DNA from: Fragilariopsis cylindrus CCMP1102
Lineage: Eukaryota; Bacillariophyta; Bacillariophyceae; Bacillariales; Bacillariaceae
DNA length: 64,000 nucleotides
Assembly: GCA_900095095.1 (NCBI GenBank)
Contig: FMBT01000317.1
Span: 351,691-415,690 of the forward strand
Direction: 5' to 3'
The notes under the pieces: generated by a model
The model's database searches: none
Told to the model about the DNA's origin: nothing
What the model saw: the letters and a program-made list of their open reading frames with translations, nothing else
Translations under genes and position numbers: made by a program
In this document: piece after piece, positions 30,463-63,225 of the stretch
How positions within the stretch are numbered: position 1 is the first letter of the stretch
Layout of the letters: each line of letters opens with the position of its first letter

Positions 30463-32177
30463 CTAACAGCCTTCAAATTTGCATGCCACAGGGCAGATTT
30501 CTTTTGCTGATGCACCTGATTTGGTGATGCTGTTGCATTTTTTTTTCTTTTTGATCTTCTTGCAATTAAAGCTCTTACCATTTTCTAATTTGATCTTACC
30601 AGACTTATCCTTACATGGTGGACAAAAACGTTTACATAATGATGGACAGCTATCTGCAACAAGCACACCATCAATTCTATTTTTACACTTTTTTTCTGTT
30701 TTCTTTTTCAAATACTTTTTGCATGACTTTCCTTTAAAGCTAAAATCTGATTCATCAACATTATTACATTCATTAGGATTTTTCGTACCAGTTGGTGCAC
30801 CAGTTGGTGTACCAAAACCAGGAGCAAAGCATCCCTGTGTATTATCTTGACACCATGGTCCAATGGTTGCATCTGGACTTTCTATACCATTAGGACAATC
30901 AGTGTCTTTCAACATAAACCTTGTTCTCACAGTATCAGAAGTCTTTTCAGCCCATGTGGAAAGACATTGATTGAAAGAAAATACACCATACAACATTCCA
31001 AACATATCCTCTACCTTAGAGACATTCCATGAGTCAATGGGTTGGTTGAAAGAATAGGCCCTATAAAATAGTCTTTCCATATCCTCTACCTGAGAGACAT
31101 TCCACGAGTCAATAGGCTGGTTGAAAAATCCTGCCCTACGAAACATTCCATACATATCCTTTACCTGAGAGACATCCCATGAGTCAATAGGTTGGTTGAA
31201 AGAAATTGCACCACTAAACATAGATCTCATTGTTTCTACCTGAGAGACGTCCCAAGAGTCAACAGGTTGGTTGAAGGAACTTGCACCACCAAACATAGAT
31301 CTCATTGTTTCTACCTGAGAGACATTCCAAGAGTCAACAGGTTGGTTGAAGGAACTTGCACCACCAAACATAGATCTCATTGTTTCTACCTGAGAGACAT
31401 CCCATGAGTCAAGAGATTGGTTGAAATCATATGCAAAACGAAACATATCATCCATATCCTTCACCTTAGAGACATTCCATGAGTCAATAGACTGGTTGAA
31501 TTTTAAGGCCTCAGAAAACATTTGTCGCATTGTTGTAACCTGTCCAACATCCCAACACTCTAATGGATCATTAAAAGTTTTTTTCCCATATCCATTAATA
31601 TCATCATCATTTGATGGATAAACTTGTCTATAGTAACCATAATATGAGTCAAATGCAGATCTCATATCAGTAATGCCTGCAGTATTCCAGCAACTAATAT
31701 CAGGATAATCTAATGTACAATCTCCATTTATGTAACAAGTAGTCAGAGATCGGAAGGATCTCTCATAACTAGAAACGTCTGGACGTGTACCAGGGCATAA
31801 AGAAGTACAATCCAACGAATCAAGTTGACGGTGATGTTCATCATATTGTGGGTGGTAATGATAGTAGGAATCAGACATTTCCTCCTCTTTATTGAATTCT
31901 TCATTATCAATGCGGGACATAGTAGTAGTAACAACATTCTTGTATTCTATACCTTCTAGAAAAGAAAGTGGAACACAATATCCACTAGATGCATAGGATG
32001 CGTCTTCTGGTTCCAAAAAGGCACCATTTCCTTCAATTGCTTTGTTTTGAGGAACACAAGCATCATTAGGGGACGAGCAGGTACCACGATTTAGATGACC
32101 ATAGTCCATCTTAGTGATACTTTCTTTATTCAAAGAGATTCTCCTCTTCATTAAAGAATCATCGTCAGAAGTAGCAG

Positions 32178-32212
<35 letters not shown>

Positions 32213-32556
32213 GTAGTGGTAGTACTAGTAGGAGAAGTATTGCATTCCTCCAATGATTTTTCTTCTTGATGTTCTTGATGATCTACTAGATGATGAATCA
32301 TTTCTTTCTTCTGCATGATGTCACCTTTATCATCAGCAAGCTTTACATCATTTGCTTTGTTAGGATGACCATCAATGCTATTTTGAATCTTCATTGGCTC
32401 AAGACGGGACTTTTTGCTCTTGTATTTGACTTCAATTGATTCTTCAAGGATTGATTCTGCTACATTATGTAGGACAGAGTCATGGGGTTCTTCCATAGCC
32501 ATTGCGGTCGTCGAAAGGCTTGAGAGGAATGGAATTAACGCAGAGGAAAATTTCAT
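30463..32556 (-). CDS. Secreted BspA-like (DUF285 repeat) surface protein
   Basis: 697 residues, single exon. A signal peptide starts the protein (MKFSSALIPFLSSLSTTAMA). Residues about 60-260 are low complexity and acidic. Residues about 320-530 hold eight near-perfect 25-residue repeats of the type SWNVSQVETMRSMF followed by FNQP, the DUF285/BspA-type leucine-rich-like fold seen in bacterial surface lipoproteins and many protists. Three central repeats are almost identical at DNA level (31180-31400), a sign of recent duplication. The C-terminus has a Thr/Pro/Gly linker and two Cys-rich modules (SFKGKSCKKY with SCPSLC; SFNCKK with ICPVAC) like those in the DUF1996 protein. Probably cell-wall or extracellular adhesion; this is inference. 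Confidence 0.85.
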
Positions 32557-33789
32557 TGTTGGTTGGGAGATTCTTGATGATTGAAAAACAATTGGATGTT
32601 ACACTGTGTTTTTCTTCTTCTTCTTTTTGTGAAGTTATGTGCTTTACATATCTCTCGTTTCCCTCATCTAAATTTAGAAAAGGAAAAAATGATAATGAAA
32701 ATAATGTCATGCATTAAGTTTGCTAGCCAGATTACAAGGTAGATTGCTACGAGCCTCCTGCGGGAAGAAATGAAAGTTGCGTGGGTAATAGTACTGTCCT
32801 ACCGTACAAGTGATAGATGTCAACATCAGAACAGTAGTACACGTAGTGTTTTAGATTGCTACTGCCTAGTCTCCTGCGGGAAGAAATAAAAGTTGCACGG
32901 GTAATAGTACTGTCCTACCGTACAAGTGATAGATGTCAACATCAGAACAGTAGTACACGTAGTGTTTTAGATTGCTACTGCCTAGTTTCCTGCGGGAAGA
33001 AATGAAAGTTGCGTGGGTAATAGTACTGTCCTACCGTACAAGTGATAGATGTCAACATCAGAACAGTAGTACACGTAGTGTTTTAGATTGCTACTACCTG
33101 AGAGGTGAAAGGGAACCACGAGTTAACTTCAAGCGCGACGCGATGGAATCCTGCATACGGTGTACATACTGTACATACACTGCCTAGTCTCCCGGGAAGA
33201 AATAAAAGTGTGCGCGAGTACTAGTAATGTACCGTACAAGTGATAGATGTCAACATGAACAGTAGTACATATTTATTTTTAGTTACTCTTTATTTTTTTG
33301 AAGGACGATATAGGATCCTGCAAGACAGAACTCATTAGTTATGGTTCAAAAAAAATCAGTCCCATCAATCAATACTGTAAATTATAACCTAAAGGGTAAA
33401 GAATGCACAAGGCAAATGTGTAGTGAGCTAAGGAATGGATCTTGACATACCTTCGATCGTGCATTCAATGCTTCCCAAACGCAAGTCAGTTATTTTTGTA
33501 AGAAAAGAGAGAGAAAAGAGAAATTGCCACTAAGACTTATTCTGTCTTCGGCGATCCATCCACGTTGTTTGAGGCTTATTTTAAAAGCTAGTAACGGAAC
33601 CAAATCGAACCGCTCGAAATAATGATAAAACCTGATAGTATAATATAATATATAATATATATTGTGTAATGTAATATAATATAAGGAGAGGACTGGAATG
33701 TTAGCATGAAGAAATTTTTCTTCTCTTCTTAGGCCAGAACAAATAGTATATAAAGATATGATATAAAGACACTTTTCTTTCGGAAAGAT
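32557..33789. other. Intergenic region upstream of the BspA-like gene
   Basis: 1.2 kb without a gene. It holds the 116-bp tandem repeat described separately and an AT-rich palindromic run (TATAATATA type) at 33640-33685. The last 100 bp are the 3' end of the RBM39-like transcript. Confidence 0.5.
32757..33272. repeat. 116-bp tandem repeat, three close copies and one diverged
   Basis: Copies start at the CCTGCGGGAAGAAAT word at 32757, 32873 and 32989, a fixed spacing of 116 bp, and differ at only a few positions. An unrelated insert of about 80 bp (33099-33178) separates a fourth, more diverged copy at about 33179-33272. Every copy contains TACCGTACAAGTGATAG. The array sits 200-700 bp upstream of the BspA-like gene. 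Confidence 0.9.
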
Positions 33790-40816: not shown

Positions 40817-41461
40817 TTCTTCGCGGTCGGCTTTGATGTAATCAACGATGTGAATAAAAGAACTTGTTGTTGTTTCTGTGTTGTGATGTCGTGAAATTAT
40901 TTTTCTAATAGAAGTCGTCGTGTAAGTTGCAATGCAAACAAATACAAGATAAAGTTTTTTATGAGGGAAGCCAACTATCAAAGACGGCGACTTGTGCGTG
41001 GGCAAGTCGGAAATAAAAACATATTAAACCTTTGTCTTTTTTTCTACAACCAAACACATAGGTTTTTTGAGCTGAACAAAGAGAAGAAACAGGAAATCAT
41101 CGCCAATTCATTCATCCATTCTTCGTTCGGCGTGGAGGAGGCGAGATATATGTAGGATAATAAGTTACGCACCATACTGTCAATCCAAATAAGGAATAGC
41201 CCACCGGTACGTACAAAACCGCAGATTTTTGTGTTTGAGTGATTGGATCCGTCTGTCTGTCCAACGACCGTAGATTTTCTCAGCCACCAAAATATTTCGA
41301 CGCGTTCACACATACTTTTTTGCACAAAACGACATCAAAAAAAATAGAAATATCTTCTCATCATACGGTAGTATTCATTTCCTTTTTCTTCTTCTCATCA
41401 TTCTTAAAATCAATTAGGAAGTAACTCTAGTAGTAGTAGCAGTGGTAAAAAAGAATTGAAG
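40817..41461. other. Divergent intergenic region
   Basis: 645 bp between the FG/J gene (minus) and NAT10 (plus). AT-rich, with a small AGT repeat near 41425-41440. Probable two-way promoter. No gene seen. Confidence 0.45.
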
Positions 41462-44400
41462 ATGGTTCGAAAAAAACTTGACGAACGAGTACGAACTCTA
41501 ATTGAACGAGGTGTTGTCAATAACGAGCGGTCGATTTTGGTTTTGGTCGGTGATCATGGAAAGGACCAAGTTCCAAATCTACACCAGATCCTATCGAAGA
41601 CGTCATTACAGCAACGACCAAATGTTCTGTGGTGTTACAAAAAGGAACTCGGTTTTTCAACTCATAAACAGAAACGTATTAAAAAAATTAAGCGAGACAA
41701 GGCTCGCGGATTATCGAGCAATGGTGGTGCTAACGATGGAACAGCCGACAACTTCGAGCTATTTATCGGTTCGACAGACGTTAATTGGTGTTACTACAAG
41801 GATTCACATCGTGTCCTAGGTACTACTGTTGGTATGCTCGTTCTGCAAGATTTTGAAGCCTTAACACCGAATCTAATGGCAAGGACAATCGAGACAGTAA
41901 AAGGTGGTGGCTTGGTCGTGTTCTTAATGCGAACAGTTAAATCTCTTAAGCAACTTTATACTATGACGATGGACGTTCATGCACGATACCGAACAGAGTC
42001 ATCAGGTGATCTAGTCCCAAGATTCAACGAACGGTTCATTTTATCTCTAGCAAAATGCTCGAATTGTTTGGTATGTGACGACGAGCTTAATGTCTTACCC
42101 GTCTCCCGAAAGACCCTAAAGGGCTTGGATCCTAAAACTGGTGGAGGCCGAGTCGAAAAAGGTGACGCTGGAGAAGTTGTCCAGCAAGAAACACAGGAAG
42201 AAATGGAATTGAACGCGCTGAAAGAATCTCTACACGATACTCCTCACGTCGGTGTATTGGTTGATCTAGCCAAGACGGTCGATCAAGCTAAGGCGCTATT
42301 GGTATTTTTGGAAGCGTGCTCAGAAAAGACTAGCATAACCTCTACCGTAGCAATGACAGCAGCTAGAGGTCGAGGAAAGTCAGCAGCCATGGGATTGTGC
42401 CTAGCCGGCGCAATTTCATTGGGATTTTCTACTATGGCTGTTACAGCTCCCGAACCTGAAAATCTTGTTTCTGTCTTTGATTTTTTGATCCGCGGTCTCA
42501 AGGCACTCAAATACCAGGAACATCTGGATTATAACATCACATATAATACTGCATCTGGACGTGAGGCGATCAAATGCATAGTAGCAATCAATATTCATCG
42601 AAGTCACCGTCAAGTCATCCAATACATTCCACCGCACGAAACTGATAAGTTTTCTCGGCAGAAATTGTTGCCGTCGATGAAGCAGCGGCTATCCCTCTCC
42701 CAGTTGTTCGAAAACTAATGCAGCATCCAGATCGATTGACATTTCTCAGTTCAACAATCAACGGATACGAAGGTACTGGGCGAGCATTAAGTTTGAAACT
42801 AATCAAAGAATTACGAGACTCGAAGGGTGGAAGACAGGCCCAGCTGAATACCGCCGGAGCTGCGGCTGGAGCGATCGTCGGTGCAAGATCCAAAAAGGGA
42901 GAGGCAAGAGTTCACGAACAACGATACAAAGCAGCGGCAGAAGCAAACGGAGGAGGAGAAGGCGGTGACGTTCTTTCCGGACCGCTCCGTGAAATCGAAC
43001 TATCAATGCCGATTCGATACGCTCAAGGAGATGGTGTGGAAAGTTGGTTAAATAAATTACTATGTCTCGATTCGGGATCAAGTGCCCAGTTGAAACTGAA
43101 CGGGGGTGCACCGGCGCCATCCGACTGTGAACTATATAGTATTGATAGAGATGCACTCTTTTCGTACCATAAGTTGTCGGAGTCTTTCCTTCAAAAATTG
43201 ATGGGCCTTTATACGTCAGCGCATTACAAAAACACACCAAATGACCTACAGATGCTATCGGACGCACCAGCTCATTCCGTATTTGTGTTGTTATCTCCAT
43301 CTGCAGAAAAGGATTCAAATTCCTTGCCTGACATTCTAGCGGTAGTGCAGGTGGCACTGGAGGGTAAGATTTCACGCAAGGCCGTGGAAGCGCAACTTGC
43401 TCGTGGTCATCGATCGGCTGGAGATTTAATCCCCTGGACAATTGCTCAGCAATTCGGAGACTCGAAATTCGCTCAGTTGAGTGGTGCACGCGTTGTTCGA
43501 ATAGCAGTTCATCCGTCTGTACAGGGTATGGGTTACGGTTCTCGAGCAGTGGAATTACTTTATAGGTTCTACAACGGAGATATGATATCCCTAGATGGTT
43601 CTGACAACGAAGAAGATGACGAAGAGGATGATAATAACGACGACGACGAAGCATCTGAATCCGATAACGACATGAAGGACGAAGACGGTAAGAGTCAACA
43701 AGGGATTCGAGCAGAAAAATTGGCTCCCCGAAAGGAGCTACCTCCACTTCTTCTACCACTCACTGAGGTGAAAGCCCCTCGACTTGACTGGATGGGAACA
43801 TCTTTTGGATTGACTCTAAATTTGCATAAATTCTGGAGCAGAGCAGGTATGAAAATGCTATATCTTCGACAAACCAAGAATGAATTGACTGGTGAACATT
43901 CTTCTATTATGGTGCGGGCACTCCCCAAAACATCTGGAGTGGACGATGCTTGGCTCAGCGCCTTTGTCAATGATACGAAAAGACGATTTATAGCGTTACT
44001 AGCTGGCTCGTTCCGGGATATGGGAATTAGAACGGCGCATTCTGTTCTTGAGAAAATGGGTGAAAATAAAAATGTCACAGAACGCTCCGGTATTGCTGCC
44101 GACAAAATTTCTGCGGAAGAACTTGGCCTTATAATGACTCCGCATGACATGAAACGGCTCGAGCTGTACGGAAGAAACCTTTGCGACCATCATTTGATTA
44201 CCGATCTCCTTCCAACTGTAGCCCGTCTGTACTTTATCGGACGATTTGGAAAAGATTTAAACTATCTAGCGTTCAATCTGCCATTCTTTGTGGAATTGGA
44301 GTTCAAAATCGAGTTGTCGACTCGTTGACAAAAGAATTAGGCCTTCCATCAAACCAGGTTCTTGCAATGTTCAACAAAGCAATTCGTAAGATATCTATCG

Positions 44401-51071: not shown

Positions 51072-53931
51072 TTACTCATCGAGGTCGAATTGCTTAAGCT
51101 TTTTTCGTAAGGCGATGATAGGTGCACGCGCTGCTATAGAATCACTCATCCCCTTGTTGTTATAATGTAGGGATGGATAATAACGATGCTGTCGTAACAC
51201 ATCAGTCCTTGTCACCATCCCCACTAAATAACGACTACCATCCTGAACGACGGGGATACAACCAACATCATTCTCCAATAATATAGCTTCCACTTCCGCC
51301 ATCGTAAGACTTGCCTCTACAGTTTTGATATGCTGTTTCATCCAGGCCTTCACAGGAGGTCCTCTGCGGCGTTGTTCATCGGCGATCTTCCGTTGTTCAA
51401 TTATCTTTTTCTTCTCCTCCGGTGATAAGGAATCATCATCATCATCGTCGTCATTGTCGTCTTGCTTCTTCTTGTTTGCCTCTTGCCGCAGTCGCTTCTG
51501 TTCCTTATTCCACATACGTTGCTTGGCTGCCGCTACTTCTTTGTAGGTTACCAGACCAATCACTTCATTTTCTTCGTTCACAACAGGTAATGCCCGGACA
51601 TCGTACCGTGTAAATAAGTCTTCTACTTGGAATTCCGTCATATCAGGTTTCACGCTTAAGACGGGGGATGTCATAAAATCACCGACCGTTGCTTGTTCCT
51701 GTAAACTGGTCTCAATTAGTTCGTCAACAAGGTCTGACATAATCCCAGCCGCTTCGGATTCGTCATTCAAACGAACCGTAGCAGAAGCTGCCTTCGGATG
51801 ACCACCACCACCATGCTTTCCCAGCAGTTTTCCTAGATTGACCGACTTCGTCTTTACACCAGGTTTGACGCGACCAATTATGATTAGAGTACTGGGTGGT
51901 GAAGTAGATATTTCAGGGGAGGTTTCACTGGGCAGCATATAATTTTGCCCCCTCGACTTTGTCTGGACATCATTCGAAAACTCAACGAATTCTTCGAAAC
52001 AAATTATATCATCTTTGTTGGTATCAATGGTATCCATTAGACCAAGGATTGTGTCTTCTGTGGCAATAATTCCCGAAGTGACCAAAGCGGCCGATAATTC
52101 TTTTCGATCTATGTAACCATTCCCGTCTAGATCCTTCTTATCGAAGGAGGACCTCAATTTTTGCAATGTATTCATATATTCTGGACTAGGATTATGAACA
52201 ATACCGGTAGATGTTGTTTGATCTATAGTTTTTTCTTTCCCTTTCAGGAGTTTTGATTTCACATTTTCGCCTGGTGGTCGGGTTTTCTTATTCCGTCCCC
52301 CACGACCCGATTTTTGGTTCGTACACTACTCCCAACAAGAATACGTCAGCAGAACTAAGTTCCATAGCATCTTTAGTTACCGCTGCCAATCCATTAATAA
52401 ATCCATCTGCTGTTAGCAATACTGTAGTTAGTGTTACCCCATGTGCGACGGTTGCGTTGGCGTTGACGAGAGCTTGAGTCAAGACCTTTTGTTGTTCGGG
52501 ACTGAGCGATGTTTTCGCATGTTCCGCAATTGCGACTTGACTTGCCCCCTGCGCCATCACCCAAGCCAAAGCAAAGGCATCGCGGGGAGTTGTGGAATCG
52601 TAACATAAGCTTCCCGTATCCGCATGGATACCCAGAGCCAACAACGTCGCTTCCGCTGCTGTTAGCGTCGATACCGGCAATGGTGATAATGACAATGATG
52701 CGGCGGCCTGTTGTTTTTCTTGTTGTTTCATAAGTCGTTCAATAATGAGCGTCGACACGGATCCAACTCCATCTACTACGTAATCTGTAATATTTGCAAT
52801 ATCCGATTCCATATCAACATGATGATCGACAACGGTGATCCGATCAGCATGCTGCAACAATACCTCTGCGGGTCCGATCCGATCCTTTCGCTGTGCATCG
52901 ACTAATGCCAACCGATGTAGTTGAGAAAGATCTTTCGGAAGAGATTTCAGAGAACGGATAGGAAAAAGATGTTTATGTAGCCCGAGGAACCGCTGTACAT
53001 CAGGATGGCATCCACGAGGTAGTACAACAAATGTCGGGAAGTTGCTACTAGAGCTATCATAGTCACCATCATCACCATCATTAGCAGTACTATCGTCGTC
53101 TTCGTTACCAACGGATGTTTGTGAAGACCACAACTTCGCCAAACCCACAGCACTCGCTAAAGAATCAAAGTCGGCCGTACAATGGGTAAGTACAACATTG
53201 AAGCCCGTAATTGGTACCACATGAACTGATTGTTCAGCAACCGCGGGACGATCTTGTTGTTGTTGTTGCTGCTGCTGTTCTTCTTTGCGTGTGGTTTTAT
53301 CTTCTACGGATATTTCTACGACGCTGTCTTCTTCTACTGTTGTTGTTGTAGTCGTGGTCGGAGATGAGGACGTTGAAACGTCAGAAGAAGAAGAAGTAAT
53401 ATCATCATTATTGTCGTCGTCGTCTATTGAATCGAGGGATAACTCTTTTTCTAAAAAGGGTGTATAATCAAAGTTTTCGAAATCCTTAAAAATATCATCC
53501 TCATCATCATCTTCTTCTTCGTCATTATCGATGTGATCAAAATCAAAATCGTTATTATCTAACTGAAACTCCTGATCCACGGCAGCGATACCAGAATCTA
53601 CCGAAGGGGAAGAAGCTGCAGAGGAAGACCAGGGATCACTAGATGATGACGTTGACTCCTCAGCCGATAGAGAAGTACTAAATTCTCTCATTAATAGAGG
53701 GCGTCCTAAAAATGCCTGTTGTTGTTGTTTTCGATTTTGTTCGTTCTTATTATTAAAGTTATAATACTGTTGTTGTTGATTCTGATGCTGTTGTTGATAT
53801 TCATATTTCTGTCGTGGTGATAACGATGATGATGTTATTGATAATGGATGTTGAAATGCATTTGTTGTCACAGTGATAGATGATATCACCAAGAGAACGA
53901 TTCCTCCTATCAACAGTTGAAGCCGCCGCAT
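51072..53931 (-). CDS. DHH/DHHA1 phosphoesterase with EF-hands and two CBS domains, plastid-targeted
   Basis: The ATG at 53931 gives MRRLQLLIGGIVLLVISSITVTTNAFQ, a diatom plastid presequence with an A-F site; longer in-frame starts exist upstream. An acidic low-complexity spacer precedes a DHH domain: HCTADFDSLAS, LALVDAQ, VVDHHVD and GIHADTGSLCYDS supply the metal ligands. The frame then slips by one base near 52297-52308 and resumes GRNKKTRPPGE. Two EF-hands follow (DLDGNGYIDRKE and DTNKDDIICFEE), next the DHHA1 half (GRVKPGVKT ... LGKHGGGGHPKAAS), then two CBS domains (VGDFMTSPVLSVKP; YDVRALPVV; LENDVGCIPVV). The family cleaves small phosphoesters such as nanoRNA or cyclic dinucleotides, or polyphosphate. 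Calcium and adenosyl-nucleotide control are inferred. Confidence 0.82.
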
Positions 53932-54739
53932 CTTCTGCAGCGATGATAATTCTATTAGGAGCAAATTGTTGCTGTTGTTGCAGCTGATCTTGTGATCCGT
54001 TGCTATTCTTTTAGTGTTATTTATTCGTATCCTTTCTACTTTTGTTGTCGCCATCATGCTTGTCTTATTATTATTACTGTATATCATGTATCTTCCAGAT
54101 TGAAGGTGTGTCACAACAAACAGCAAGAGGAAGTTTTAGTTAATTAATATTGTATTGGCGTGATTACAATCGATTATGTGTGATGTTGACATCGTTGCTT
54201 TATCTACTGTAAGTCGCACACGATGCGTACTTGTGATACGCATACCGTAGCAGACAGCAGTGGTAAGAACCCTAAAGAACAATTTCTGGGGCTATTTCGG
54301 GGGAAGTAATTGCTTGCTTTACAACCCCTTTTAAATACCTCTCCGAAACCAGTTCCGAAACTAAAATGTACACTGGTTACGTACACTTTCCGTGCTTTCA
54401 TTATTTGAATCTTGCCAAGATTCAAATGATCTAATCTTGATAGATACAAAGAATTTGCGCGTCACTCCTGTTTCATGTTGTTCGTGCTGTGCTTATCATT
54501 TTTCGTGTCCAACTCATTCAATCGCAACTGTAAAACAAGAAGCAAAACAGAAAACAAGCATGCGATCGGATGCATTTTTCTAAAGTTTCCAAAGGGATGA
54601 ATAATGAGTGGATAGTAAGTTCAAAACCTGTTGAAACAATCGTGGGCAGCGTAGTCCTACCTAATTATCATTCCATATCAACAGTATGCAGTAAAGATAA
54701 CATTGATTTTTCTTTCCTTCTTTCATCAAATTCTTCACC
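53932..54739. other. Divergent intergenic region
   Basis: 808 bp. The first 195 bp remain open in frame with the DHH gene and may be 5' UTR or an N-terminal extension. No other gene recognised. Confidence 0.45.
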
Positions 54740-56857
54740 ATGCAATCGACGACAACAACGACGACGTCGACAATGCAGAAATCAGTACTACTGATTCTAC
54801 TACTATTTACGACGACGACAACAATATATGCTTGGACCTCTTCACATCATCATCATCATCATTGTGGAATCGGTAGTAGTAGTAGTAGAAGTGCTGTTGT
54901 CCCTTCTCCTGTTAGATCATTGTCATCCTTGCGATCTAGTAGCAGTAGTAGTGGCAGTAGTAGTAACAACAATACAACGACGTATTCTAATTCTGTTCAG
55001 TCCTTTAAAGATCAAGAAGAATATTCCTACAATGAAGGAAGTGTTAATGTAAGAATCGTCAACGATAGTAATACTATTGATACAATAGCAGCAACAGCAG
55101 CAACAGCAACAACAACAACAACAACAACAGCAACAACAACAAAAGGATTAACTCAAGAAACAGCAGGTACATCATCATTAGTGGATAAGATTGTAGTTGT
55201 TTTAAATACGAATTCAGGTGGTGTCACCTATGATTTAGTCAATACCGCAAATGATCTTATACGAGAAATAACTATGGATAGTAATAGTAATATTGATGTT
55301 CGACTGTTAGTGACATCCACCTGGGAGGATGCTCAACTTGCTGCAAAAGGTATTATGAATGACATCGCTTCGTCGTCGTCGTCGTCACTGCCGAAGAAGA
55401 AAAATAAGAGTAAACCTACTTTAATTATTCCGATAGGAGGTGATGGGACGTTGACATCTATTATCAATTTGTTATGGAAGGAACAACAAAACAAGAACAA
55501 GAACAAGAATAATAATAATAATAATGAGGAGGAGTTTCCTTTTATTTTTGGTTATATTGCCATGGGAACAGGAAATGCATTAGGGACGGTTGTGGGTTGT
55601 CGTCCACAGCAGCAGCAGCAGCAGCACGTCCACATGACCACAACAACCACAAAAAGAAGAAGAAGTAGTGGTCGTAAACGAAAATTTCTCAAAAGTTTAT
55701 TCCGTCATCCACAACAAAGGAAACAAGATAATTTTAAAATTGTGTTGCAACAATTAATAGAAGCCACCACAACAAGAACAACCACAAAATCGTCGTCGTC
55801 GTTGGAGACTGATATCATTGATTTGCCTTTGATTCGTGTTCGGACTACGAAAGCAACAAAAACAGGAGTTAGTAACGGTGGTAGAAACGACAACATCATC
55901 GATGGGGATAATGATAATAATAATGATAATTATGATGATGATCAGTATGCATTTTTCGCTGGTGTTGGTTATGATTCTTTATTATTACAAGATTATAAGG
56001 ATTTACAAGAGTGGACCAAAAAAAAAGAAAAATACAGCAATAATCATAACTTGCTGCCTCGACGACCACGTTTCCTAACCACAGGTGTATTAGGATATAC
56101 CGTTGCGATGTTAACACGTAGTATACCAAAACTAATTCAATTACAAGATCCAGCTAAATTATTACGTGATGTTCGAATAACCACCACCAAATCAAATGTA
56201 CAAGCAACCTCCTGGATCGATCATCGACGTGGGGATATAATAAGACCAATTGAATTAGAGTCATCAGAAAGATCAATCATCTTCCACAACAATGATGATG
56301 ATGAAGAAGAAGAAGAAGAAAATACAGATGAAAACAATAATGATGAAGAAGAAATATTACTATATCGTGGTTCTGCTGGGATCATCGCTGGTTCGACTGT
56401 TCCGTATTATGGTGGTAAATTAAAATTATTTCCATTCGCAAGACTATCCGATAACACCAGTATGCAATTACGGATCGTTCGTCAATTGCATCCACTGGAA
56501 GGTTTATCGAAGGTCATGTCAATTTTTAATGGATCGTATCGTGATTCTTCTTCGAATACATTTAAATGTTTAGATTTTGTGGGTACAAACTTTAAGATTG
56601 AAATCAATGAAAGTTACAGTACAAGTACAAGTAACGGCAGCAATGTGCAACAAACAGAGGCAGGATTTCCTGTTCAACATTCCGGTGAATCTGTTGGACG
56701 ATGTACACGTATCGAATTTGTGACTGCCTCATCAAATAATAAGCGCTTATCATCATCATCATCATCATCATCGTATTCATCGCTTCCACCGCCGATACGA
56801 TTTGTGACATTGATGTCACCACGGCTTGTTACCGAACGAATGGATATAGATTCATAG
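54740..56857 (+). CDS. Diacylglycerol/sphingosine-kinase-like lipid kinase
   Basis: 705 residues, single exon. An N-terminal hydrophobic stretch (SVLLILLLFTTTTTIYAW) followed by Ser/Asn-rich sequence suggests ER or plastid targeting. The DAGK catalytic domain begins KIVVVLNTNSGG, contains the nucleotide-binding PIGGDGTLTSIINLLW and AMGTGNALGT, and is interrupted by Asn, Gln and Lys/Arg inserts. The C-terminal beta-sandwich part shows FFAGVGYDSLLLQDY, GVLGYTVAMLTRSI, TVPYYGGKLKLFPFA and LDFVGTNFKIEI. The enzyme phosphorylates a lipid headgroup with ATP. Diacylglycerol, ceramide and sphingoid base cannot be distinguished. Confidence 0.82.
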   Translation: MQSTTTTTTSTMQKSVLLILLLFTTTTTIYAWTSSHHHHHHCGIGSSSSRSAVVPSPVRSLSSLRSSSSSSGSSSNNNTTTYSNSVQSFKDQEEYSYNEGSVNVRIVNDSNTIDTIAATAATATTTTTTTATTTKGLTQETAGTSSLVDKIVVVLNTNSGGVTYDLVNTANDLIREITMDSNSNIDVRLLVTSTWEDAQLAAKGIMNDIASSSSSSLPKKKNKSKPTLIIPIGGDGTLTSIINLLWKEQQNKNKNKNNNNNNEEEFPFIFGYIAMGTGNALGTVVGCRPQQQQQQHVHMTTTTTKRRRSSGRKRKFLKSLFRHPQQRKQDNFKIVLQQLIEATTTRTTTKSSSSLETDIIDLPLIRVRTTKATKTGVSNGGRNDNIIDGDNDNNNDNYDDDQYAFFAGVGYDSLLLQDYKDLQEWTKKKEKYSNNHNLLPRRPRFLTTGVLGYTVAMLTRSIPKLIQLQDPAKLLRDVRITTTKSNVQATSWIDHRRGDIIRPIELESSERSIIFHNNDDDEEEEEENTDENNNDEEEILLYRGSAGIIAGSTVPYYGGKLKLFPFARLSDNTSMQLRIVRQLHPLEGLSKVMSIFNGSYRDSSSNTFKCLDFVGTNFKIEINESYSTSTSNGSNVQQTEAGFPVQHSGESVGRCTRIEFVTASSNNKRLSSSSSSSSYSSLPPPIRFVTLMSPRLVTERMDIDS

Positions 56858-57010: not shown

Positions 57011-59717
57011 CTATCCCTTTATAATACAAGCAATGACAGCAACCACAAATACTATTCCTCCGGCTAGCTGCGCAACACGGTGACCGTTTCGTATATCTCT
57101 TGGACTTGGACCTCGGACGCCAGTAAGATTCCTTCCTAAGCAATATTGTCCTCTCTTCTCCAATCTGACCCCTAATACTCCCGCCATAGCTCCCATCGGC
57201 CAACCAGCATTAGGTGAATCGCATTGACTGCAGTCTTCCCAGGCTGTTTTCAAACCTCTCCCTGCATTGCAATCGGGTACAAATGCTGCAGCAATACAAA
57301 GTGACACAGCCGTTAGTCTTGCAGGGATAAGATTGATCAGATCGTCGAATCTAGCGGACGCTTTCCCAAACCATTCAAACTTTCCATGATAGCCCACACG
57401 AGAGTCTAGTGTGTTCGATATGCGGTATCCCAGAGCACCAAGAGGCCCAAAGAGGATATACCAGAACCAGGGGGCGACTGTACCGTCGGAAAGATTTTCC
57501 TGTTGTCAAAACAAAAAGGACAGATCGTGTGTGAGATTTTTTTAGTTTAATTTTCAAGTCATAGCCGTGCGATTGATTCTCATGCAACAAGGGACGTTTT
57601 CAAAATCGTCTATCTTGTAGCCTGGCTTACCGATAAACTCTCAAGCGTCCCACCTGCTAGTTCCTCCGAATTTAGATGTGTTGGATCACGACTGCATAAC
57701 CACGACAGCTGACTTCGAGCTTCTTGGAGTTGAGAGCGCTCTAAGAATCGGGCCATTTGAAGTGCAATTGTACACAAGAGTTGAAGAGAAAATGTCGTTT
57801 TGAAAAGAACCACCTTTAGGATCCAGGAAGCGAAGGCCGTGATATTTTGGAGAGTGTATTTGTCATAGATTGAAGATGATGCACTGCAAGAAATGTTTCC
57901 GACACCATCGGTGGTAAATTGGATAATGTAGAGGAATAACCACGCTCCACTTAGAAATAGCGAGAGCATCCCCACGAGAAACAATACTCCCGAACTAAAC
58001 CCTAGGATAGGGCTTTGATACACTCGCTCGGGTATCCATTTTTTAGTTATGACACTGATCGTCGATCCGGCTAGACAAACAGGATGTACAATAAGGGGTG
58101 GCTCCGGAAGGCAGCTGTGGTTCATTCAATCAGTCAACAAGTTGATTAATTTGCACAAGTAGTTTGAGAAACAAAAATGTGAGTCGAACTGCGATATATT
58201 CTGATTCCTCGAGAAGAAAAGAAAATCGAGAACATCTCTCTCGTAGGAAGAGTATTGATAGTTGTTTACGATGTATTACTTACCGGTCCCAGATAGTTGC
58301 AGCTATCAATATTGTTGCCGATTGACCAATAAATGGTGTGATACAATACGAAGCGAGTACACATATCCATCCAAAAAGTATTACCGATATGGGTGCTCGG
58401 GGTACTGGCATCATTGGAAGGGGTGGAACACACGGTCTAGCACCTTGTAGGATACCGATAAATGATCGATACCATTGATATATATTATACCGAATAAGTG
58501 ATCCACCGTGGATGTGATATATATTTGCTAGGATCGCCTCATGAGTCGCTTCACGAACTGCCTGTCCTATCATCTCTGCAAGGAGATATGCTTTCCCGCA
58601 AATTCAATAACGACATCATTACTATTATCATCATCATTCTTTGTTGTAGTCTCCATCTTACTACCAGGAGTAAATAAAACAGCACAATCCGTACCAGTTC
58701 CCTGAGCTAATTACTCCCATACAACGATTGCAATGATTTCGCACATTGTACTCGTAGATCGGCACAAGCTGCACATTTCGCCTCAATCACAATTGCATAG
58801 GCTTCTACCATAGCCCCCGCAGATAATGGTGCATTAATAATAACGACGGTATTAATAGTGCCTGGTGTATATGGTGGATTTTTTGGTTCCTCGTGCTGTT
58901 TCTGTTTTTGTTTTTGTTGACCACGACGACGTCGAAGATTATCTTGAGACTGATCACCTTCTTTGCCACTACTTTCACCTTCACCTGCACCACCACCATC
59001 ATCATCATCATCATCATCACAACCTTTATCATTTTGAGATCGTGGTGATGGTAGTGGTGGAGGGAACATATAAAAGCAATCGGCATCAGCCCCCGCAGAT
59101 CTTGCGTTCGATATACCTGCCGTAACGATAACGTCCACAATAACACCACCGGCCGATCGACTTGCTGTCCGTAGAGATTGCATTGATGCTGCCGTCATCA
59201 GACCAACAGTTTTTTCTTCGTCACAGTATAAGGAGGAGGTGGAGGCGGAGGGAGGCGGAGAAGAAGATACATGAGTATCATTATCGTCGTGGTTATCATC
59301 GTTATTGTTGCTACTACTACCATTATTACATAGTTGTTCTTTACCGATCGCAGTTCGGAGAAAGCATTTTGGTTCAGGGTTTAAACCATCATACGTTGAT
59401 GGCATTTTGTAATTAAGAACGCATACCTTTTGATTTTTTTGATTTTGCAGCTTATCGCTACCATAATTGTCGATATTCTGCTCATCAGAAGCAGGGATGG
59501 TATGATTGCTACTGCAACAGAAAGAACGAGGTCCACCATTCCAAATTGCAGATGAAAGCGCATTCCAAGAGACAATACTTCGATTGTTGTCATTTCTTTT
59601 ACTACCATCATCAAAGTGAACAACAGAGGGAAGCTCGATCAAAGACCGATGTTCATCAACATTTACCTTACATCCAGTTGGTAGGATAATGTACCGCTTG
59701 TACTCGTCGTCAGCCAT
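57011..59717 (-). CDS. CbiZ-CbiB fusion: corrinoid amidohydrolase plus cobinamide(-phosphate) synthase
   Basis: Exon A 59717-58284, exon B 58114-57631 and exon C 57499-57011 join in phase, about 800 residues. The N-terminal half is CbiZ, which hydrolyses adenosylcobinamide and pseudocobalamins to adenosylcobyric acid: SWNALSSAIWNGG, TVGLMTAASMQSL, VDVIVTAGISNARSAGAD, PGTINTVVIINAPLS, then QGTGTDCAVLF and EFAGKH. It runs straight into CbiB, the membrane enzyme joining aminopropanol(-phosphate) to cobyric acid: CLPEPPLIVHPV, ENLSDGTVAPWFWY, NTLDSRVGYHGKFEWFGK, ARFDDLINLIPARL and SPNAGWPMGAMAGVLGVRL. The frame is one base short at 58709-58710 and again at 58576; adding one base at each gives uninterrupted homology. 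Exon A phase fits only if both are restored. Confidence 0.85.
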
Positions 59718-60442: not shown

Positions 60443-63225
60443 ATGGATCGTCAAAGAATCATTCGCCAGTTTTTAGGAGAAGGCTCACGGTATCAATACG
60501 GGTCCATGTGTATGCCAACAGCTCCGTGGAAGAAATCTAAGACGAAGTTAAATTTTTATTCCAAAGGTATGTAGGTAGTATCAGTGTCAGTGTTAGCATC
60601 ATATTTTATATAATCCTCATCGTCATCTTCAATATCATCTCGATAATATACTATGGGTATGTTATTCTGATATGTATCTATATTTCACAACAACAACAAA
60701 AATCTTACTTTCTTCGTGCTGTTGTTACTTATTTTTATATTTCTGCTTTTGCAATGTCCATTAAAAAACGATAAATGATACAAAATCGAAACACACAACA
60801 TTGTCATTTATTTGTACAGATGAGAAGCTCCCAATTTTAATGTCCTTAATTATGGGCTTACAACATTGTTTCTGTATGGTCGGAGGATTAATTACTCCAC
60901 CTCTTGTTGTTTTCAAGTTTTCCGTTTGTGGTTTTGCTGAAGGGTTTTGTCCAGAGTTAGTTCAAGTGAGTTATATTTTGTTGTTTATTTGCTTGTTTTA
61001 ATGTATTGTATTGTATTGTTTGTTTGTCCGGACGCTTTCTTATTCTTTTTACATGAAGAGATACGATATCGTCGTTCTTTGATCTGTTGCGGTATTTACT
61101 ATTGTTTATCATACTGTTCTCATACATTTACTGTATCATTTGTCGTTCTTTTTTATACTATATGATTATTATAGTATGCTGTCAGCGCCTCATTGATTAC
61201 TTCTGGAGTTTGTACTATTATCAATATTGTTAAGGTAACCATTCCATTCTCTGAGAAATTCTTCGGAAGAAAACTTTATATCGGTAGTGGAGTTCTCAGT
61301 GTGATGGGTACCTCATTCACATGTAAGTTCGTTCATTATTATTTCACTCATTCGTTCAAGTTAAACACTTTAGTAAACAATGCACTACAATGATGGAACA
61401 TTATATTCGGACTTTATTGAATGGTATATAATTGAACCTAACCTTTTTGCTTTCCCTTATTTGTATGATATATATTATTTTGTATTATATTATGCTATAC
61501 TAAACTATACTATACTATATCATATAGTCTTACCTATATTTGAGATAGCAATTGCACAAATGAAAATTGATGGAATTGATGGACGGGTAGCATATGGCAA
61601 AATGCTTGGAACAAGTATGGTTTGTTGCCTCCTTGAATTATTCCTTTCATTGATCCCACCTGCTCGTTTGAGACGCTTGTTCCCCCCGATCGTTACATCA
61701 ATCACCGTTATGTTAATTGGTATTGCTTTGACAGGAGCAGGAATGAAATATTGGGGTGGGGGTGTTGTTTGCGCTGACATGGGATGGAAAACTCATTCTC
61801 AAATTGTGTCACAAGACATTACATTCCCCCCACCTTTCCCTACCTGTACCAACGGTGAAACTTCCTTAAATTACGGATCGGCACCATACATCGGACTTGG
61901 TTTTTCTGGTAAGTTGACTTGGTATAAAAAAATTCTAAATATATGCGAATAATTCATACTATTTCTTGGTCTTCATCACTTTTTCTTCTTACCACCACCC
62001 CGCCCAATTGACCGTCATCTTATCTTGATTTATTACTTGTTATACGCGATCATAATCATTAGTTCTCGTTTTCTTGGTATTTATTGAACTATTTGGAAGT
62101 GTTTTTATGAAGAATTGTAACGTTATTTTTGCCCTACTATTTGGTTATATGATTGCTAGTCTTACCGACTTTGAAGGAGAATCATACGTCGATACTAGTT
62201 CTATCAAAGATGCTGATCCTATCACATTCTTATGGGTGGAAACTTTCCCGCTTGGTTTTTATGGGCCGGCCGTAATTCCTCTCTTAATCGCGTCTATTGT
62301 GGTGACCATTGAAACCATCGGTGATATTTCTGGTAAGTCGACTGGTAGATTTTCATATTTATTCTAGATAGTACAGTATGCAATTGACCGTCGTGTTTGT
62401 CATAATATATCTTATCTTGATTTACTACTTATTTTGCGCGATCATAATCATTATTTTCATTACATAAAAGCTGTCTACGAAGCTTCCGAATTGGATACAA
62501 TGTCCGAGGAATTCGATGAGTCGATACAAGGAGGCCTTACAGCCGATGGAATAAATTCGATTCTTGCAGGTTTATTCACATCGATGCCCAACACTACATA
62601 TTCTGAAAACAATGGAGTTGTCGCATTGACCAAGTGTGCGTCGAGACGTGCTGGGTACGCATGTGGTATCTGGTTAATCCTACTTGGTATTTTTGGTAAA
62701 ATTGCTGGTGTAATTACAAGTATCCCCGATTGTGTTTTGGGAGGAATGATAATCTTTTTGTTCGCCAACGTCTTAGTAAGCGGTATTGCTCTTACCAAAA
62801 ATGTTGATTTAGATAGCCGCCGTAATAGATTCATCATGGCTTTTAGTATGGCACTTGGTGTTGGTGTCACGGTCTGGCCATATGCTTTTCTCGACCGTCG
62901 TGCATCTCCTTATACTGCACCTTTCTGGGAATGTGGAGACTGCTCTGATGCGATGAAGGGACTTCGAAATGGATTATCGATCTTTTTGTCGACTGGATAT
63001 TGTGTGGGTAGCGTTGCTGCTATGATGTTGCATGGTATCTTACCCAGCGATGTTGAACTCGCTTACGCTGAAGACGATGATAATCAGAAGGATGATTTGG
63101 TTCTTACCGAAAACAACGAGAAGGATGAATCAGACAAAGTAGAAAGCAAAGGCGATAATGATTTTGATAAGAAATCCTCGGGTGAATACGATGCAAAAGA
63201 AATGGCAATGATCGAAGATGCATAA
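60443..63225 (+). CDS. NCS2/NAT-family purine or uric acid permease
   Basis: Six exons join in phase: 60443-60566, 60820-60965, 61175-61322, 61528-61908, 62063-62332 and 62471-63225; about 607 residues. The nucleobase-ascorbate transporter family moves xanthine, uric acid or related bases with a cation. Visible hallmarks: the QH motif in helix 1 (MGLQHCF), EGFCPELVQ, FELFGS-like helix after exon 5 start, and the signature region QGGLTADGINSILAGL followed by ENNGVVALTK, matching N-x-G-x4-T. About 12-14 hydrophobic helices. The tail is long, acidic and Asp/Lys-rich, probably cytosolic. UapA-type substrate (uric acid/xanthine) is likelier than uracil from the signature. Confidence 0.88.

Follow-up and report, generated by a model that had tools for sequence, protein, structure and literature searches.

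Archaeal CbiZ converts adenosylcobinamide to adenosylcobyric acid, from which CbiB forms cobinamide phosphate, and bacterial CbiZ cleaves pseudo-B12 (excerpts of PMC3541065); the Rhodobacter sphaeroides enzyme cleaves pseudocobalamin, not cobalamin, in vitro (excerpts of PMC7733943). Remodelling in R. sphaeroides begins with the same CbiZ family as found here, and further gene products then complete a cobamide with another lower ligand; however, this system is bacterial, whereas the diatom locus encodes CbiZ and CbiB as one spliced eukaryotic protein, in an assembly in which CobD was not found by an exon-wise search. CbiS (adenosylcobinamide hydrolase/alpha-ribazole phosphatase) resembles the diatom protein in that CbiZ is fused to an enzyme of the nucleotide loop, but its fusion partner differs from CbiB.

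Among eukaryotes, the nearest comparison lies in algae that remodel corrinoids. Cyanobacteria produce pseudocobalamin, which algae use poorly and some algae convert (excerpts of PMC4850488 and PMC7733943). Chlamydomonas reinhardtii and Pavlova lutheri possess CobT and CobS and use pseudocobalamin if given 5,6-dimethylbenzimidazole (DMB) (excerpts of PMC4850488); according to the same excerpts, neither cbiZ nor cbiB was found in the algal genomes considered there (Helliwell 2016), whereas the diatom has both, fused. Likewise, the P. lutheri transcriptome and the C. reinhardtii genome are described as lacking CbiR and CbiZ homologues, and the algal remodelling enzyme was termed undiscovered in 2020 (excerpts of PMC7733943). 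No eukaryotic CbiZ or CbiZ–CbiB fusion is described, as judged by titles and opening lines, in the open-access papers that the searches listed, and other eukaryotes may well have such a fusion too. The enzymes themselves are known; their arrangement and their host are not described within the literature searched.

Gene structure and assembly copies

The window (the whole stretch of DNA analysed, 64,000 nucleotides) is part of a 415,690-base contig (C451) in an assembly of 67.9 Mb and 818 contigs. The gene occupies the minus strand from an ATG at 59717 to a stop codon at 57011, in exact agreement with the coordinates proposed in the first-pass annotation, and comprises three exons and two GT-AG introns, called from the DNA sequence alone:

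58284-59717, minus strand: exon 1, with the start codon, the whole CbiZ domain, the linker and the very start of CbiB
58115-58283, minus strand: intron 1, 169 nt, GT-AG
57631-58114, minus strand: exon 2, N-terminal half of CbiB (profile positions 10-143, E 2.4e-15)
57500-57630, minus strand: intron 2, 131 nt, GT-AG
57011-57499, minus strand: exon 3, C-terminal half of CbiB (profile positions 144-277, E 5.9e-43), with the stop codon at its end

A profile search of the diatom's own genome places the CbiZ domain of this copy (E 5.8e-26, 96.3 bits) above its curated cut-off, as it does the CbiB exons; a low-complexity insertion lies within the CbiZ domain of exon 1.

Further copies of the fusion gene are present on contigs C288 and C126 of the same assembly. 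The CbiZ part of the window copy is broken by two single-base frame slips, near 58710 and 58585 (plus-strand coordinates). Small introns were considered as an explanation for these breaks and rejected because C288 and C126 are both continuous there; the slips thus reflect faulty assembly or belong to a single allele. After splicing, C288 yields one uninterrupted 807-residue protein carrying both Pfam domains and is the sole clean copy of the three, as the coding sequence of C126 is broken at other sites by frame-disrupting gaps, single-base ones among them. The proposed fusion of CbiZ and CbiB in a single spliced gene is borne out on C288, with the correction that the open frame of the CbiZ part is interrupted in the window copy.

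The window region matches C288 at 94.8% identity over 7,046 alignment columns and 87.5% over 923, and C126 at 96.8% over 7,786 columns with 80 mismatches and 112 gap openings (BLAST). We infer that C451 and C288 are two alleles and that C126 is a poorly corrected mosaic of both. In the coding sequence, C451 and C288 differ by substitution at 37 of 2404 columns, against 212 of 4438 outside, a density about one third of that in the flanking columns, which take in another gene and are no neutral yardstick. The 36 codons that differ comprise 17 synonymous and 19 non-synonymous changes, many of the latter in low-complexity stretches, and of the seven coding indels, five have lengths divisible by three and two are the window slips. 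Frame-breaking gaps in the CbiB half number zero in C451 and C288 and one in C126.

These comparisons bear on whether the gene is decaying, with the window allele a true null and the locus on its way to being lost. Such a history would fit the two slips in the window and the single-base gaps in C126; however, C288 is intact, the CbiB half is nearly free of frame-breaking gaps, substitutions are sparser in the coding sequence than around it (with another gene in the surroundings), and the excess of gap openings over mismatches between C126 and C451 reads as assembly error. We consider decay very improbable. Against the reading of the gene as a bifunctional enzyme we nevertheless count that the window copy is broken twice, that C126 is gapped and only C288 is clean, and that more than half of the codons differing between C451 and C288 do so non-synonymously.

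The prokaryotic type of both domains invites the explanation that the locus is bacterial contamination or a chimeric contig. This was considered and set aside as barely credible: the two GT-AG introns occupy identical places in all three copies, the locus lies on a large contig of an assembly in which silicon transporters are matched at 27 places (best E 1.1e-226), the prokaryotic CbiB matches listed reach at most 50% identity, and CobU, on another large contig (769,314 bases), likewise reads as two exons. The silicon transporters mark the assembly as that of a diatom, and the earlier assignment of the gene to the nucleus rather than to a contaminant stands on these introns and this assembly context. 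Its neighbours in the window include the following:

41408-44325: NAT10/TmcA-type gene, in two frames
54707-56854: diacylglycerol-kinase-type frame
61377-63222: xanthine/uracil permease, in several frames

Elsewhere in the window, a minus-strand frame at 30466-32598 contains three stretches of DUF285 (E 3e-105), whose family name derives from Mycoplasma, and adjoining minus-strand frames at 51075-54135 carry DHH, CBS and EF-hand domains and are perhaps one gene. An Rfam search of the window returned no match.

Domain conservation and prokaryotic relatives

In the C288 protein, Pfam identifies CbiZ (PF01955) at residues 160-397 (E 4.3e-37, 128.4 bits against a cut-off of 27) and CobD_CbiB (PF03186) at residues 476-769 (E 3.4e-71, 240.3 bits against 34.4), with no third family at E 0.001. 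The CbiB equivalog model TIGR00380 is passed (171 bits, cut-off 165.9), and four other CbiB-type NCBI models do not reach their cut-offs with this protein. Twenty-four CbiZ columns are conserved, in that at least 90% of 23 prokaryotic rows (selected out of 49) carry the same residue; the diatom matches 22 of these and replaces Y by F and G by A in the other two. The N-terminal stretch missed by the Pfam match aligns too, including an NGG motif, and the domain looks full length, interrupted by low-complexity insertions of which the largest spans residues ~225-288. For CbiB, the diatom and eight prokaryotes have the same residue at 31 alignment columns, and a Kyte–Doolittle hydropathy plot, as distinct from a dedicated topology prediction, peaks at residues 442-470, 518-551, 699-720 and 784-807. 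Membership in CbiS was rejected: model NF038002 requires 250 bits and the protein scores 51.9, and Pfam gives only CbiZ and CobD_CbiB. Searches for relatives of solved structure found none for a haloarchaeal CbiZ at E up to 0.001 or for the diatom CbiB at E up to 10.

At least 571 CbiB relatives were detected in species genomes, with search patterns that favour some groups; the best 80 were retained, of which 48 are labelled Chloroflexota and 18 Pseudomonadota. CbiZ is present in 13 of 50 genomes drawn from these 80, in 34 of 400 from the phylum of a Dehalococcoidia bacterium (G004) and in 8 of 58 from the phylum of genome G038. The 122 loci scanned include 48 that bear CbiZ, from 41 genomes, and in none of these 48 do CbiZ and CbiB share a single frame; no listed CbiZ frame exceeds 499 residues, and all those of at least 450 residues were among the 48 loci. 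In 12 of the 41 genomes, a lower bound as many loci have a flank of only 1.5 kb, cbiB lies directly 3' of cbiZ on the same strand, overlapping it or at most 508 bases away; one further genome has cbiB 3.5 kb on and another has cbiB first. These neighbouring pairs (e.g. L044, L052, L174-L176), mostly from the phylum of G004, match the diatom in families, order and strand, their frames being adjacent or overlapping, but they are always two frames where the diatom has one spliced protein. Among plasmids, 153 records match CbiB, none at 60% identity or more, and diatom CbiZ has no match; a contig scan with the fusion returned 70 stretches, none of them a relative.

The simplest origin is that the fusion gene may derive from such a bacterial cbiZ–cbiB neighbour pair. 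In a 50-row tree, diatom CbiZ pairs with L158, its closest relative found, a locus from the G004 phylum (support 96/89, 42% identity, long branch); in an 89-row quick tree, diatom CbiB is without a supported sister. Counted against an operon origin from the L158 lineage is that its 3.6 kb locus holds no CbiB frame, and that inspection by eye of the frames listed for its 12.8 kb contig shows nothing CbiB-like.

Partner genes and a candidate remodelling route

CobU (E 8.7e-30), CobS (E 1.1e-33) and CobT (E 3.9e-91), partners that the first-pass annotation had named, are present in the same genome by profile search, within 6.4 kb on contig C679:

L021:2408-3601 (C679): CobU with a C-terminal PterinBD-DUF4346 domain (PF14251, E 1.5e-16)
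L021:6592-9020 (C679): CobS-CobT, apparently one protein, with a single change of frame within CobS as assembled

CobU reads as two exons separated by a GT-AG intron by our own reading. A single 553-residue open frame encodes CobT along with the final part of CobS. The first part of CobS lies immediately ahead of it in a different frame, and the profile positions are continuous from one to the other (4-160, then 159-206). CobS-CobT accordingly appears to be one gene with a frame slip, the alternatives being an intron or two genes. A second CobS place, on C127, gives no further information, because C127 has the same sequence as C679 there; C127:1-1880 is identical to part of C679, a contig overlap, and copy numbers in this assembly need care. 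Between CobU and CobS-CobT, two overlapping frames (L021:4287-6454, C679) encode a hydrophobic-looking protein that has no Pfam or NCBIfam match and is possibly a transporter of the pathway.

Both forms of methionine synthase are represented by domain matches, each in two copies:

Contigs C548/C751 and C128/C608: MetE and MetH domains

MetE is matched as one domain (E 1.0e-48), as is MetH (E 5.0e-104), whose match has a TAG as its second codon, ahead of the conserved region. The presence of MetE besides MetH makes a strict need for external B12 unlikely, which weakens the host dependence implied in the first-pass annotation; the diatom can probably use B12 but need not, and is probably facultative.

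With much of the partner pathway in the same genome, the gene is a real and probably functional fusion. We think it likely, judging from domain content and gene complement, that this nuclear gene encodes a bifunctional, membrane-anchored corrinoid enzyme in a pathway that makes cobalamin for MetH. If the gene is expressed and spliced as predicted, the soluble N-terminal CbiZ would cleave the amide bond to aminopropanol, whether or not the nucleotide loop is attached, turning imported cobinamide or pseudocobalamin into cobyric acid, and the C-terminal membrane CbiB would re-attach aminopropanol phosphate to give cobinamide phosphate. CobU would then form GDP-cobinamide, CobT would activate DMB and CobS would attach it, such that the wrong form of B12 could be converted to cobalamin for MetH. 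The proposal that the product of CbiZ is the substrate of CbiB fits the order of the published route from CbiZ through cobyric acid to CbiB (excerpts of PMC3541065).

A more limited function would be cobinamide salvage, in which an archaeal-like CbiZ acts on free cobinamide only and no lower ligand is exchanged. The literature separates archaeal-type CbiZ (cobinamide) from bacterial-type CbiZ (pseudo-B12), at least in the excerpts available, and the substrate of the diatom enzyme is not assignable from its sequence by itself; however, diatom CbiZ groups with the bacterial L158 (on the long branch noted above), the CobT match (E 3.9e-91) implies activation of DMB, and a kinase-active CobU would by our reasoning salvage cobinamide without CbiZ and CbiB. 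We regard salvage alone as unlikely and favour remodelling.

The weak link of the remodelling route is the supply of aminopropanol phosphate, the compound that CobD normally provides to CbiB, as CobD was not found over the cut-off: the best TIGR01140 match reaches 140.9 bits against 290.55, in an exon-by-exon search of a fragmented assembly that does not prove absence. This match was rejected as CobD since the gene is HisC-like, its second exon scoring 224 bits for hisC and 143 for CobD. A local tblastn with BluB, CobD and other cobalamin queries against the retrieved regions gave CobT as its sole match. Eukaryotic cells commonly contain ethanolamine phosphate, and nor-cobamides exist. CbiB could use another amino alcohol, such as ethanolamine phosphate, and the product would be a nor-type cobamide rather than cobalamin, which the lack of a CobD match would suit. 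We hold this to be distinctly unlikely, given the exon-wise nature of the CobD search and the prospect that aminopropanol phosphate comes from the cleaved loop or from another kinase, and we retain cobalamin as the expected product.

The arrangement of these genes recalls a proposal for bacteria, in which CbiB and CobS serve as the membrane anchors of a complex that also contains CobU, CobT and CobC (Jeter and Escalante-Semerena; excerpts of PMC8092220). In the diatom, the two membrane enzymes each appear to be joined to a soluble partner, CbiB to CbiZ and CobS to CobT, which suggests, and does not prove, channelling. More tentatively, and with somewhat less than even confidence, we propose that a nuclear remodelling line of fused proteins (CbiZ-CbiB, CobU-DUF4346 and CobS-CobT) is a covalent form of the bacterial membrane complex, in which intermediates, perhaps including the aminopropanol linker, would be passed on without release. 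If this is true, the line of fused proteins would be an algal remodelling system of a kind so far missing.

BluB and CobT transcripts were reported from the host of UCYN-A in 2026, and the same paper raises the speculation that pseudocobalamin from nitrogen-fixing cyanobacterial endosymbionts is remodelled by their diatom hosts (excerpts of PMC12903740). Genes like the CbiZ–CbiB fusion would be search targets in such diatoms. With CobU, CobS and CobT encoded in the same genome, the fusion constitutes a testable candidate remodelling system, at least for this lineage, and it may help to explain how some algae turn unusable forms of B12 into usable B12.
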